DNA from: Paludibacteraceae bacterium
GTDB lineage: Bacteria; Bacteroidota; Bacteroidia; Bacteroidales; Paludibacteraceae
Direction of reading: 5' to 3'
Length of the DNA stretch: 64,000 nucleotides
Assembly: GCA_031292565.1 (NCBI GenBank)
Contig: JARLGW010000008.1
Span: 62,001-126,000 of the forward strand
Shown: positions 3,327 to 7,356 of the stretch, piece after piece
Layout: each line of letters begins with the position of its first letter
Numbering within the stretch: position 1 is the stretch's first letter
Translations under genes and position numbers: made by a program
The notes under the pieces: model-generated
Seen by the model: the letters and a program-made list of their open reading frames with translations, nothing else
Databases searched by the model: none
Told to the model about the DNA's origin: nothing

Positions 3327-3334
3327 TACTTTTG
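3327..3334 (+). promoter_or_regulatory. -7 promoter box of the MgtE-N/Nramp operon
   Basis: TACTTTTG matches TAnnTTTG. The nearest TTTG (3298-3301) lies 25 bases upstream, longer than usual. A start of transcription near 3341 would leave a leader of about 125 nt. Confidence 0.5.
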
Positions 3335-3360
3335 CAACGCAATTCAAAATTCATTTTAAA

Positions 3361-3467
3361 TGGACGCAGACCCTGGCAGTAAAAATAGTATGAACCTGAT
3401 ATAGCAGGGTAACGCTCCTACCGGAATGCGCACGTCCCTGCTATGTAAAAAGCATGGAGGTGACTTA
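3361..3467 (+). promoter_or_regulatory. Structured 5' leader, candidate metal-responsive element
   Basis: The leader holds a perfect 9-bp stem, ATAGCAGGG (3401-3409) with CCCTGCTAT (3436-3444). The CAGGG half can instead pair with CCCTG at 3371-3375, so two mutually exclusive folds are possible. A CTCC within the loop (3414-3418) can pair with GGAG of the ribosome binding site at 3456-3460. The GCTCCTA stretch recalls the M-box Mg2+ riboswitch, but I could not match the full M-box, yybP-ykoY or NiCo consensus. It precedes genes that fit Mg2+/metal uptake. Functional assignment is inference. Confidence 0.4.
3456..3460 (+). promoter_or_regulatory. Shine-Dalgarno GGAGG before the MgtE-N gene
   Basis: GGAGG lies 7 bases before ATG 3468. 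Such sites are rare in this window, which makes it notable. It decides the start in favour of 3468 over the ATG at 3426, which is buried in the leader hairpin. Confidence 0.6.
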
Positions 3468-4727
3468 ATGACAACTTTCACAACCTTTTACTTGAGCCGT
3501 ATTCTCGGCAAAAGAGTAGTAGATGCTCGTGGCAAAACCATTGGTATCGTCAAAGATTTACTTATCCCATCCAATCACAATTCCAGCCGAGTTGTAGTAC
3601 ACGGAATCAGCCTAAAGCAAGGCGATAAAACCGTTATTTACAATTTCGATTATTTTCAGGTAAGAAAAGTCAACAACAAAATTATTGTTAGCTGCACCGA
3701 CTTGATACGTCTTTCGGAAGAAACCGTTTCCGACGGCATTTTTCTAGTTGAGGTCATTCTGGACAAACAAATCGTGGACATGAACGGGCGGAAACTGGTG
3801 CGGGTAAACGATGTGCGGATGGTTAGCATCGGCGAAATAACCTACGTGGTGGCTGCCGATATTGGCATGGAAGGTCTATTGCGAAGAATAGGCATTGCCA
3901 AACCGCTGAAATATTTACTACTGATGTTCAAGGTATCCATTCCATCAAAATTTATTCTTTGGGAGGATGTGGAAGCTGTTGATTTTTCCAACCTGAACAT
4001 CAAACTATCCAAAACTTATTCAAAATTAAATACTCTTCACCCATCAGACTTAGCCGATATTATTGAAGATTTGGGCAAAAAATCGAGTACCGAGGTATTC
4101 TCCTCGCTTGACCAAGAAAGAGCTGCCGACGTACTGGAAGAACTCGAACCTGAAACTCAGGTTTATATCGTGGAAAATCTGCCTATTGAGCATGCCGCGG
4201 ATGTACTTGAAAAAATGCCCGCCGATGAGGCTGCCGACATTTTGGATGCGTTGGAGGACTCGAAAGCAGAATTGCTGCTAAAGGAAATGGAAATGGACTC
4301 GTCCGACGAGGTGCGGAAGCTGCTTGAGTATGAAGATGATATGGTTGGTAGTATCATGTCCACCGAGATGTTGGTATTCAACAAAACGGATACCGTGCAA
4401 GAGGTGCTCAACCGCCTGCGTGAATCGAAACCCGAAGCGGAAGAAATGTATAGTCTTTTTGTGGTGGATGATGATAATAAACTAATAGCCACCTTCTCGC
4501 TGCGCGACATCGTGGTGTCAGAACCGGAAGTACCAATTAGCGAGATCATGAAAAAATCGCCGGTACACTTGCACGACTACGAAGAGATTGACGAAATTGC
4601 CGAATTCATATCCAAGTATAACCTGCTGGCCATACCGGTGGTAAATGATGCAGGCGAACTGCAAGGCATGGTAGTGATTGACGACGTAGTGGAGGATTTG
4701 ATAAATAAACGAAGAACAAATAAATAA
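3468..4727 (+). CDS. PRC-barrel / MgtE N-terminal / CBS domain protein (soluble metal sensor)
   Basis: Soluble protein of about 419 aa that resembles the cytosolic part of the Mg2+ channel MgtE but has no membrane domain. Two PRC-barrel-like units (about residues 6-85 and 90-170, with LGKRVVDARGKTIG and LDKQIVDMNGRKL) come first. An MgtE-N superhelical region (about 185-295, with repeated DVLEEL/AADVLEKMP/AADILDALE helices) and a CBS pair (about 296-410) follow. In MgtE these domains bind Mg2+ and gate the pore. The gene lies 18 bases upstream of an Nramp-family transporter, so it probably senses cytosolic Mg2+ and controls that transporter. Its GGAGG ribosome site and structured leader suggest control at translation. 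The partner function is inferred from context. Confidence 0.8.
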   Translation: MTTFTTFYLSRILGKRVVDARGKTIGIVKDLLIPSNHNSSRVVVHGISLKQGDKTVIYNFDYFQVRKVNNKIIVSCTDLIRLSEETVSDGIFLVEVILDKQIVDMNGRKLVRVNDVRMVSIGEITYVVAADIGMEGLLRRIGIAKPLKYLLLMFKVSIPSKFILWEDVEAVDFSNLNIKLSKTYSKLNTLHPSDLADIIEDLGKKSSTEVFSSLDQERAADVLEELEPETQVYIVENLPIEHAADVLEKMPADEAADILDALEDSKAELLLKEMEMDSSDEVRKLLEYEDDMVGSIMSTEMLVFNKTDTVQEVLNRLRESKPEAEEMYSLFVVDDDNKLIATFSLRDIVVSEPEVPISEIMKKSPVHLHDYEEIDEIAEFISKYNLLAIPVVNDAGELQGMVVIDDVVEDLINKRRTNK

Positions 4728-4745
4728 AAATAGGGAGAGCTTACG

Positions 4746-5987
4746 ATGTTTAAAGATAAAAAAAGCATTCTTAAACGCATCGGGTTTTTTTTGGCCATCC
4801 TTGGGCCGGGAATAATTACCGGTAGCGTGGACAACGATGCAGGTGGTATCACCACTTACTCAGTGGCAGGAGCCATGTACGGATACAATCTATTATGGAC
4901 GCTGATTCCCTCGTTTATTGTGCTGATTGTGATACAGGAAATGAATGCCCGCATGGGTATTGTAACCGGAAAAGGGTTGGCCGACTTGATTCGGGAAAAC
5001 GCGGGGGTTAAAGTAACCTTCTTTATTTTTATCGGGCTGCTGATTGCCGACATTGGCAACACCACCACCGAATTTGCAGGTGTGGCAGGCAGTATGGAAG
5101 TGTTTGGGGTGAGTAAATATATTTCGGTACCCATAACCGTAGCTATAATATGGATTCTGGTGGTAAAAGGAACCTACAAAATAGCAGAACGGATTTTCCT
5201 CATTTTCAGTATATCCTTGCTTACCTATGTGGTTTCGGCTATTATGGGGCATCCGCATTGGGGCGAAATAGGGCATTCTATCGTACATCCTAAAATGGCA
5301 TTCGACTCTCAGGGCATAGCCATGGTAATAGGTATCGTAGGTACCACCATTGCACCTTGGATGCAGTTCTACATGCAATCGTCGGTGATAGAAAAGGGCT
5401 TAAAGATGAAAAACTACAAATACACCTTGATAGACATTGTAGTAGGGTGTATAGCCACGGTAGTGGTGGCATTCTTTATCATTGTGGCTTGTGCTTCCAC
5501 CCTGCATGAAAATCATATTCAGATAAACGAAGCTAAAGATGCCGCGCTGGCTCTGAAACCTCTTGCCGGAGCTATTGCATCACAAGTGTTTTCTTTCGGG
5601 TTATTTATTGCATCCATTTTTTCAGCCACCATTTTACCATTAGCCACCTCTTTTTATATCTGCGAAGCTTTTGGATTTGAAGCGGGCATCGATAAAAAAT
5701 GGGATGAGGCAAAAGAATTTTATGTACTTTATACCGGTATTTTAATTCTTTCTGCAGGTATCATATTAATTCCGAATGCACCGTTGATAGCCATCTCGTT
5801 GGGATCACAAGTGATAAACGGATTATTGCTTCCAGTAGTGTTAATTTGTATGATTCTGCTGGTAAACAACAAAAAGATTATGGGGGAATATGTGAATAAG
5901 CCACTTAACAACTATATAAGTTGGACTGCTATTGTTGTTCTTATCGGCCTTTCGCTAACGTTACTTGTAATGCCATTATTCACATAA
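4746..5987 (+). CDS. Nramp-family divalent metal transporter, possibly Mg2+-type (NRMT-like)
   Basis: Polytopic inner-membrane transporter of 413 aa with about 11 hydrophobic segments. TM1 reads GPGIITGSVDNDAGG: the Nramp metal-site DPGN is replaced by Asp31-Ala-Gly-Gly34, so Asn becomes Gly. In TM6 the MPH motif is replaced by Ala203-Pro-Trp205, so the metal-coordinating Met becomes Ala. These are, as I recall, the substitutions of Nramp-related Mg2+ transporters, while classical Mn2+/Fe2+ transporters keep Asn and Met. Coupling to an MgtE-type Mg2+ sensor fits this. A GGGAG ribosome site at 4734-4738 precedes the ATG. Often annotated MntH; the substrate is untested. Confidence 0.85.
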   Translation: MFKDKKSILKRIGFFLAILGPGIITGSVDNDAGGITTYSVAGAMYGYNLLWTLIPSFIVLIVIQEMNARMGIVTGKGLADLIRENAGVKVTFFIFIGLLIADIGNTTTEFAGVAGSMEVFGVSKYISVPITVAIIWILVVKGTYKIAERIFLIFSISLLTYVVSAIMGHPHWGEIGHSIVHPKMAFDSQGIAMVIGIVGTTIAPWMQFYMQSSVIEKGLKMKNYKYTLIDIVVGCIATVVVAFFIIVACASTLHENHIQINEAKDAALALKPLAGAIASQVFSFGLFIASIFSATILPLATSFYICEAFGFEAGIDKKWDEAKEFYVLYTGILILSAGIILIPNAPLIAISLGSQVINGLLLPVVLICMILLVNNKKIMGEYVNKPLNNYISWTAIVVLIGLSLTLLVMPLFT

Positions 5988-6010
5988 GAAAAAGAATTAA
6001 ACGCTAAGAC

Positions 6011-6055
6011 ACAACGACGCTAAGAGAAACAAAACTCTTAGCGTCGTTGTTCTTT
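6011..6055. terminator. Bidirectional terminator between the Nramp gene and rmuC
   Basis: Perfect 16-bp stem (6011-6026 with 6035-6050), 8-base A-rich loop, then TCTTT. It lies between two convergent genes, 10 bases from the rmuC stop. The preceding AACGCTAAGACACAACG resembles a repeat found twice elsewhere in the window. Confidence 0.75.
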
Positions 6056-6060
6056 AATAT

Positions 6061-7356
6061 CTATTCAATCCTGTCTATCAAATTTTGCGGCAATGATTTG
6101 GAAGCATTTGCCCCAAGCTTTTTTATTCGTTCAAAACGGCCTATAATGGTATCGCCTTTTTTAGGAGAGTCAACCAGTTTGTTCATGGCTTCGCGATATG
6201 TTTTTTGGGTGTCGTCCATACTTCTACCCACTTTAATTAAGTCGTCCATAAAGCCCACAAACTTATCATACAAGGCACCGCTTTCTTTGGCAATTTCCAC
6301 CACGTTACGCTTTTGGTTCTCTTGCTTCCAAATGTAGGAAATAGTACGAAGAGTAGCCAACAAGGTGGAGCTGGAAACAAGCACGATATTTTTATCCAAC
6401 GCTTTTTCATAAAGCGACAAATCCTGTTTCAGGGCAGCCGTAAGGGCTGGTTCCAATGCCACGAACATCATCACATAGTCGGGCGAATTGATGCCATACA
6501 GCTGCGAATAATTCTTGGCACCCAACTCGTTGATGTGTTTATTCAACGCCGCTAAATGTTCTTTCAGGAATTTTGCTTGAAGGATTTCATCCTCCGTGTT
6601 GTAATAATTCTCGTAAGCCACCAATGATAATTTTGAATCCAACACCAGGTTCTTATTATCGGGCATGTTAATAATAAAGTCCGGGCGAAACATATCGTTA
6701 TCCTCGTTGCGCAAGCTCTGCTGTTTGAAGTAATGGATGCCATCCTCCAAGCCGGCTTTTTCCAATATCATTTCCAATTGCACCTCACCCCAGTTACCTT
6801 GCAGCTTTTTATCACCTTTCAGCGCGCTGGTAAGTCGGTTGGTATCCTCGCTCACCTGGAGGTTTAGTTTTACAATCTGTGCTATTTCCGTCTTCAGCGA
6901 AATACGTTCACGGGTTTCCTCTTTATATGTTTCGTCCACCTTCTGTTCAAAGTCTTTTATCTTCTCCCGAAGCGGATTCAAAATATCACTCATGTTTTTT
7001 TCATTGATCTCCACGAAGCGTTTACTTTTTTCTTCCAACAGCGAATTGGCCATGTTGGTAAATTCCAAACGCAACACGCGTTGGCGTTCTTCCAAATCCT
7101 CATTGTTTTTGATGATTCGTTCCTGCAAATATTTGTTTTCGGTTTCAGTGCGTGCCAGGCGGTCGTTTAGTTGGCGGAGTTGTTCCTCCTTTGCATCTTT
7201 CTCCTTGCGCTCCGTTTCGTACACCTCCTTTCGGATGTATTGTTCGCCTATGGTTTGTAGCGAAAGCCCTTTATCTCCCGAAAATTTGAATTTTGCAATA
7301 AACCATGCGGCAGCAAACCCAACCAGAATGCCGATTATTAAAAATAAAATATCCAT
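6061..7356 (-). CDS. rmuC: DNA recombination protein RmuC
   Basis: RmuC limits inversions at short inverted repeats and is related to nuclease-like proteins; its exact biochemical role is not settled. The 431-aa protein has an N-terminal membrane anchor (residues 3-22, very hydrophobic). A long charged coiled coil follows (about 40-175, rich in E, K, R and Q), then the conserved RmuC domain, which includes GNWGEVQLEMILEKAGL, PDFIINMPDNKNLVLDSK and YIWKQENQ segments. Length is normal. It is transcribed alone from a -7 box at 7385-7392 and is convergent with the Nramp operon. Confidence 0.93.
   Translation of the reverse strand: MDILFLIIGILVGFAAAWFIAKFKFSGDKGLSLQTIGEQYIRKEVYETERKEKDAKEEQLRQLNDRLARTETENKYLQERIIKNNEDLEERQRVLRLEFTNMANSLLEEKSKRFVEINEKNMSDILNPLREKIKDFEQKVDETYKEETRERISLKTEIAQIVKLNLQVSEDTNRLTSALKGDKKLQGNWGEVQLEMILEKAGLEDGIHYFKQQSLRNEDNDMFRPDFIINMPDNKNLVLDSKLSLVAYENYYNTEDEILQAKFLKEHLAALNKHINELGAKNYSQLYGINSPDYVMMFVALEPALTAALKQDLSLYEKALDKNIVLVSSSTLLATLRTISYIWKQENQKRNVVEIAKESGALYDKFVGFMDDLIKVGRSMDDTQKTYREAMNKLVDSPKKGDTIIGRFERIKKLGANASKSLPQNLIDRIE

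Follow-up and report, generated by a model that had tools for sequence, protein, structure and literature searches.

A conserved upstream ORF and mutually exclusive RNA stems precede a predicted Mg2+-import operon in a Paludibacteraceae bacterium

The window analysed here (the whole stretch of 64,000 nucleotides of DNA from a Paludibacteraceae bacterium) contains a gene for a soluble MgtE-like protein followed by a gene for an Nramp-related transporter. This locus raises the question of which metal is transported and how the expression of both genes is controlled. The two open reading frames that the first-pass annotation placed within 3468-5987 are present, and their features are as follows:

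3468..4727, + strand: sensor gene, encoding a soluble PRC-PRC-MgtE_N-CBS protein of 419 aa (profile searches, predicted structure)
3480..3689, + strand: first PRC-barrel domain of the sensor, aa 5-74 (PF05239, 7.5e-8)
4035..4340, + strand: MgtE_N domain of the sensor, aa 190-291 (PF03448, 4.1e-25)
4536..4700, + strand: second CBS domain of the sensor, aa 357-411, with the first one just 5' of it (PF00571, two stretches, 7.9e-18)
4746..5987, + strand: nrmT, encoding an NRMT-type SLC11 transporter of 413 aa with predicted Mg2+ transport (profiles, structure relatives, tree)
4836..4847, + strand: helix 1 metal-site motif D-A-G-G (DPGN in Mn/Fe Nramps)
5343..5363, + strand: helix 6 metal-site motif T-T-I-A-P-W-M (MPH in Mn/Fe Nramps)

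The nrmT product matches the Pfam Nramp family (8.7e-98). Its best solved relative by a wide margin is the Mg2+ transporter EleNRMT (7qia, 4e-111), and Mn2+/Fe2+ Nramps reach only 3.5e-25 or weaker. The classical Nramp metal-site residues are indeed replaced, DAGG standing for DPGN and APW for MPH, and the likeness to Nramp-related Mg2+ transporters that the first-pass annotation had noted for these changes proved exact, since DAGG and TTIAPWM are identical to EleNRMT. The motif defined for NRMTs, DxxG on helix 1 and TxxA/T on helix 6 (eLife structure paper, PMC8806188), is present in the window transporter, and a second Nramp of the same genome (L022) retains DPGN and MPH. In the IQ-TREE phylogeny, a split with support of 100/99 separates the NRMTs plus one divergent protein (L020) from the canonical Nramps, and the placement of EleNRMT inside the NRMT half is less certain (84/39, long branch). 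The window transporter groups with EleNRMT and the Bacillota NRMTs found under M-box riboswitches, apart from the Mn2+/Fe2+ Nramps, as the Mg2+ reading of the first-pass annotation had required. The divergent protein, encoded at 1501-2739 of its locus (genome G048), is an SLC11 protein with 32% identity and the metal site DDDPSG / TTISPY, and it is neither an NRMT nor a canonical Nramp.

Membership of the NRMT clade alone is no proof that Mg2+ and not Mn2+ is transported, because the NrmT of A. capsulatum carries Mn2+ despite its MgtE-like neighbour gene (PMC4072509). The window transporter shares with the NRMT/NrmT proteins (EleNRMT, C. acetobutylicum Ca_c0685; SLC11 outgroup) the DxxG-TxxA metal site, the sequence clade and the MgtE-N-like neighbour gene, whereas it differs in its Bacteroidota host and in a leader without M-box, and its transport is predicted from sequence.

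Concerning the upstream gene, Pfam recognised PRC (7.5e-8), MgtE_N (4.1e-25) and CBS (7.9e-18) domains and no pore domain, and the NCBIfam mgtE score of the protein (155 bits) is under the cut-off of 233. This agrees with its description as the cytosolic half of MgtE with PRC barrels and without a pore. The MgtE pore domain (PF01769) was found neither in the sensor protein nor anywhere in the genome, which encodes one CorA, no MgtE pore protein and no MgtA above the cut-off. Large P-type ATPases below the MgtA cut-off do occur (G000 C1:168291-170678, with similar ones in G005, G006, G055 and G060). The AlphaFold model of the sensor presents two N-terminal beta domains, of which Pfam identifies the first as a PRC barrel, along with the MgtE N helices and the CBS pair, with a mean pLDDT of 82 and a pTM of 0.48 that leaves the packing of the domains unsure, and the top Foldseek matches of this model are MgtE cytosolic domains. 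The sensor thus has the MgtE_N and CBS fold of the MgtE Mg2+ channel, differing from the channel in being soluble, in lacking the pore domain and in carrying N-terminal PRC barrels. It also has acidic residues at the positions aligned with E59, D91, D95 and D247 of TtMgtE, which we take to be the Mg2+ ligands at the N/CBS interface, and these residues are conserved among the sensor relatives (D221 in 44/44, D253 in 39/44, D257 in 43/44 and D406 in 44/44).

A scan of 85,000 genomes provided 80 further sensor-nrmT operons. Among 86 loci compared, 84 have the sensor gene immediately 5' of the transporter gene, so the genomic co-occurrence on which the first-pass annotation depended was found. Judging from these data, the window holds a Mg2+-import operon composed of the sensor and the NRMT transporter, a gene pair that is already of published type. 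NRMTs were discovered via M-box riboswitches, an MgtE-N-like gene is present in most NRMT loci, and cytoplasmic feedback of the MgtE-like fragment on the transporter was proposed in the same work (Shin et al. 2014, PMC4072509). The core idea of a MgtE-like sensor paired with an NRMT is therefore right in outline, but it was already published in 2014, and physical gating of the transporter by the sensor is a hypothesis.

The leader of this operon (3327-3467) lies directly 5' of it, outside the region first annotated, and holds a conserved upstream ORF (uORF) together with alternative stems:

3327..3334, + strand: Bacteroidota-type -7 promoter element TACTTTTG (TAnnTTTG motif), 25 nt 5' of the uORF start
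3360..3404, + strand: uORF encoding a 14-codon leader peptide, MDADPGSKNSMNLI, followed by a stop; an M-D-x-x-P uORF is at the same place in related leaders
3399..3419, + strand: strand 2, ATATAGCAGGGTAACGCTCCT, which spans the uORF stop codon and forms the anti-sequester stem 2:3 (duplex with strand 3, -21.9 kcal/mol)
3423..3445, + strand: strand 3, GGAATGCGCACGTCCCTGCTATG, common to both exclusive stems
3450..3463, + strand: strand 4, the sensor-gene Shine-Dalgarno (AAGCATGGAGGTGA), which is masked when paired in stem 3:4 (duplex, -15.5 kcal/mol)

Because of an in-frame ATG at 3426, inside strand 3, ORF callers extend the sensor gene by 42 nt at its 5' end (433 aa), and this start call would hide the leader in annotations. 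The start at 3468 is supported by the relatives and by the position of the Shine-Dalgarno.

The uORF of the window begins with the nucleotides ATGGACGCAGACCCT and encodes MDADPGSKNSMNLI. Close relatives present M-D-x-x-P peptides at the same place wherever the locus included the leader. Overall, an M[DE]xxP uORF was found in 58 of 72 usable leaders (dinucleotide shuffles, 0.6%) and not found in the other 14, and its start is located 93-143 nt (median about 104) 5' of the sensor gene in these 58 leaders. As this count selects on peptide positions 2 and 5, it was repeated without a peptide filter on the most upstream ATG uORF at the expected place, whose second residue is D/E in 49/65 leaders and whose fifth is P in 44/65. 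Codon 3 appears as GAC, GAT, GAA or GAG, codon 4 as all four Gly codons and codon 5 as the Pro codons CCT, CCG, CCA or CCC. Because these synonymous third positions vary while the C-terminal half of the peptide drifts across loci, it is the N-terminal amino acids that are conserved. Some nucleotides are conserved beyond the amino acids, GCG being found at codon 6 in 41/58 uORFs. In one leader (L080) the uORF is lost and the promoter is relocated beside the remaining 3:4 hairpin, which is possibly a decayed switch.

The promoter element is also conserved, with TAnnTTTG at most 70 nt 5' of the uORF in 42 of 50 Bacteroidota leaders, usually at 25 +/- 2 nt (shuffles, 4.9%). The -7 element being about 25 nt upstream, the leader is short and the uORF comes first in it. 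The use of Shine-Dalgarno sequences is rare in Bacteroidota. GGAGG or AGGAG precedes all the sensor genes considered (58/58), but none of the 46 window ORFs that start with ATG and reach 200 aa or more.

Regarding the stems, 2:3 and 3:4 use the same strand 3, where they overlap by 4 nt or more in 49/50 loci. RNAalifold found no consensus structure for 45 leaders aligned with MAFFT, since neither the position nor the sequence of the stems is constant, and native pairing energies were therefore compared with those of cross-locus partners, a test of co-variation that needs no alignment. In 31 non-redundant leaders, the native 2:3 stem reached -14.2 kcal/mol against -10.0 for cross-locus partners, and the native 3:4 stem -16.0 against -11.9; neither native value was attained in 20000 permutations (0/20000 each), although these p-values overstate independence because the loci are related. 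A classical three-stem attenuator with a stem 1:2 found no support, as 2451/20000 permutations reach the native 1:2 energy. A ribosome terminating at the uORF stop, on which strand 2 is centred, covers 68% of this strand, whereas a ribosome at codon 5 covers 1%. At equilibrium, the mean difference in Shine-Dalgarno exposure between these ribosome positions was only +0.10 (-0.05 in shuffles), and in the window leader the exposure barely changed (0.19 versus 0.17). Since equilibrium folding hardly alters this exposure, the switch would need to be kinetic and set during transcription.

By analogy with enterobacterial systems, the expression of the operon is likely to be set by a leader-peptide translational attenuator resembling MgtQ and MgtL. 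With enough Mg2+, the ribosome would finish the uORF and sit over strand 2; with this strand blocked, stem 3:4 would form and the Shine-Dalgarno would be hidden (OFF). With little Mg2+, the early acidic and Pro codons would destabilise the ribosome, which would abort or pause near codon 5, leaving strand 2 free to form stem 2:3, so that the sensor-nrmT genes would be translated (ON). From these precedents we infer the translation of the uORF, its response to Mg2+, drop-off as opposed to stalling, and the direction of control.

In MgtL, ribosome drop-off at the EPDP motif at low Mg2+ derepresses mgtA (PMC11282234), and in MgtQ, Asp2 and Glu5 tip the balance from stem 3:4 to stem 2:3 and so expose the mgtB RBS (PMC8092293). 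The window leader has what characterises this type of element, that is, a short uORF with early acidic (and Pro) codons before a predicted Mg2+ transporter gene, and mutually exclusive stems 2:3 and 3:4, one of which hides the RBS. MgtQ, from the mgtC-mgtB intergenic region of Salmonella, is likewise a short acidic uORF with such stems, and there too the readout is occlusion of the RBS before a gene for a Mg2+ transporter. On the other hand, the element described here is in other phyla, before other transporters and at the transcript 5' end, its peptide is MDxxP, no shared sequence was noted, and the MgtQ-type stem 1:2 that shields strand 2 in the absence of uORF translation was not supported in the permutation test. 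MgtL, upstream of enterobacterial mgtA, shares the early acidic/Pro motif (EPDP versus MDxxP) and a downstream Mg2+ transporter; it works via a Rho-dependent terminator, whereas the predicted target of the window leader is the Shine-Dalgarno. No previous description of leaders of this kind in bacteria other than enterobacteria was found in the open-access literature, and a leader gene with an RNA switch before a sensor-nrmT operon is apparently unreported.

The uORF could also sense something besides Mg2+, such as Pro-tRNA charging, the state of EF-P or general translation stress, and the operon would then follow that signal. Acidic/Pro pausing could also reflect EF-P, EttA-like factors or charged tRNA-Pro, Salmonella mgtP does respond to charged tRNA-Pro (PMC8092293), and codon 5 is frequently Pro in the unfiltered recount as well. 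This explanation is considered unlikely: the acidic codons are as constant as Pro, M-box riboswitches sit in the same leaders, and two leaders from Clostridia (L246 and L247) have uORFs, MDDYDTDKCD.. and MDADSDDTDM.., that are acidic and without early Pro. These two peptides share acidity only, which fits a property, and not a sequence, being what matters, and they are natural variants that bear on the need for Pro.

Control of a purely post-translational nature, as in the model of the first-pass annotation taken alone, would have the soluble MgtE-like sensor gating the NRMT and the leader being incidental. The adjacency of the two genes suits this model, as do the residues kept in the sensor relatives at the presumed Mg2+ site. 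As the whole explanation it is nonetheless quite improbable, since it leaves the conserved uORF and the co-varying exclusive stems without a role. Although feedback had already been proposed by Shin et al., the same work describes that C. acetobutylicum NrmT is functional without the MgtE-like fragment and that the A. capsulatum transporter, the single case attempted, did not benefit from co-expression of the fragment (PMC4072509). A second, protein-level layer in addition to the proposed attenuator, in which the Mg2+-binding sensor feeds back on the transporter, is plausible.

It is very unlikely that the leader is a metal-binding riboswitch with the uORF as a by-product of conserved RNA sequence. 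The GCG at codon 6 would agree with it, but the stem sequences vary freely, codons 2-5 change synonymously while D/E, G and P are retained, the uORFs outside Bacteroidota carry their own Shine-Dalgarno, and no Rfam family, the M-box (RF00380) included, matches the window leader. Finally, that the uORF merely lets ribosomes reinitiate and so boosts sensor translation, without sensing, as bacterial leader ORFs can do (PMC4833913), is very unlikely with a uORF stop about 60 nt before the gene, a strong Shine-Dalgarno of the gene's own hidden in a stem, and first codons that are specifically acidic plus Pro.

The proposed attenuator was also followed in other phyla and before other Mg2+ genes. An acidic/Pro uORF preceded by a Shine-Dalgarno is present in 16 of 25 non-Bacteroidota leaders, Bacillota and Spirochaetota among them (shuffles, 0.4%). 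The M-box, which is absent from the window leader, controls the same type of operon in Bacillota (leaders L072, L089, L091, L103, L106 and L109, plus L238, L239, L241, L246, L248 and L250), and several Bacillota leaders combine both elements, with the M-box 5' of the uORF. Moreover, full-length mgtE in six Bacteroidota genomes (L204-L208 and L116) is preceded by MDxxP/MEEDP uORFs at about 100 nt, with the peptides MDEGPYHSRLKL, MDEGPYPSCSKKQEVITSL, MDDVPGYIKQVY, MDDGPYHSWREQKY, MDDVPDYHSCNNTREHKQKY and MEEDPYRSYSREKETMC. Clear 2:3 and 3:4 stems are seen in 5/6 of these leaders; in L204 they are visible by eye only, and the automatic duplex is weak. Within the order, the majority of the mgtE genes sampled lack the MDxxP uORF and the alternative stems, and in the loci checked the corA and MgtA-type genes of relatives were not preceded by this uORF. 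When 395 Bacteroidota genomes were scanned blindly for the DNA pattern, 18 genomes had matches, one of which (L192) is the leader of a PRC-MgtE_N sensor gene; apart from this operon, the scan was no richer than the reversed control and a general Bacteroidota signal was rejected. The leader element is restricted to certain clades and operons and is not universal.

Taking the phyla together, the balance leans towards Mg2+ sensing by acidic/Pro leader peptides, on which ribosomes starved of Mg2+ would drop off, being a widespread principle and not an enterobacterial speciality. It would serve Bacteroidota, Bacillota and Spirochaetota in the control of two or more unrelated kinds of Mg2+ transporter (NRMT operons and mgtE), sometimes stacked behind an M-box. 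If so, ribosome stability would serve as a magnesium gauge in phyla distant from Salmonella and E. coli, and this gauging would be a general or repeatedly invented principle. The window would also provide a clear case of Shine-Dalgarno sequestration in Bacteroidota, and the MDxxP uORF could be a marker for Mg2+ transporters where the M-box is absent. In addition, the many natural uORF variants, the acid-only ones included, would make ribosome-destabilising nascent chains testable by comparison.

Downstream of the pair, corA follows nrmT in two loci (L006 and L035), a further link to Mg2+. In the window, the next feature is a repeat:

5998..6061, no strand: long inverted repeat CGCTAAGA..ACAACGACGCTAAGAG / CTCTTAGCGTCGTTGTT, separating nrmT from a convergent rmuC-like gene

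The mir-5881 matches given by Rfam at 5998-6062 on both strands are chance microRNA matches caused by this inverted repeat, which is probably a bidirectional terminator closing the operon.
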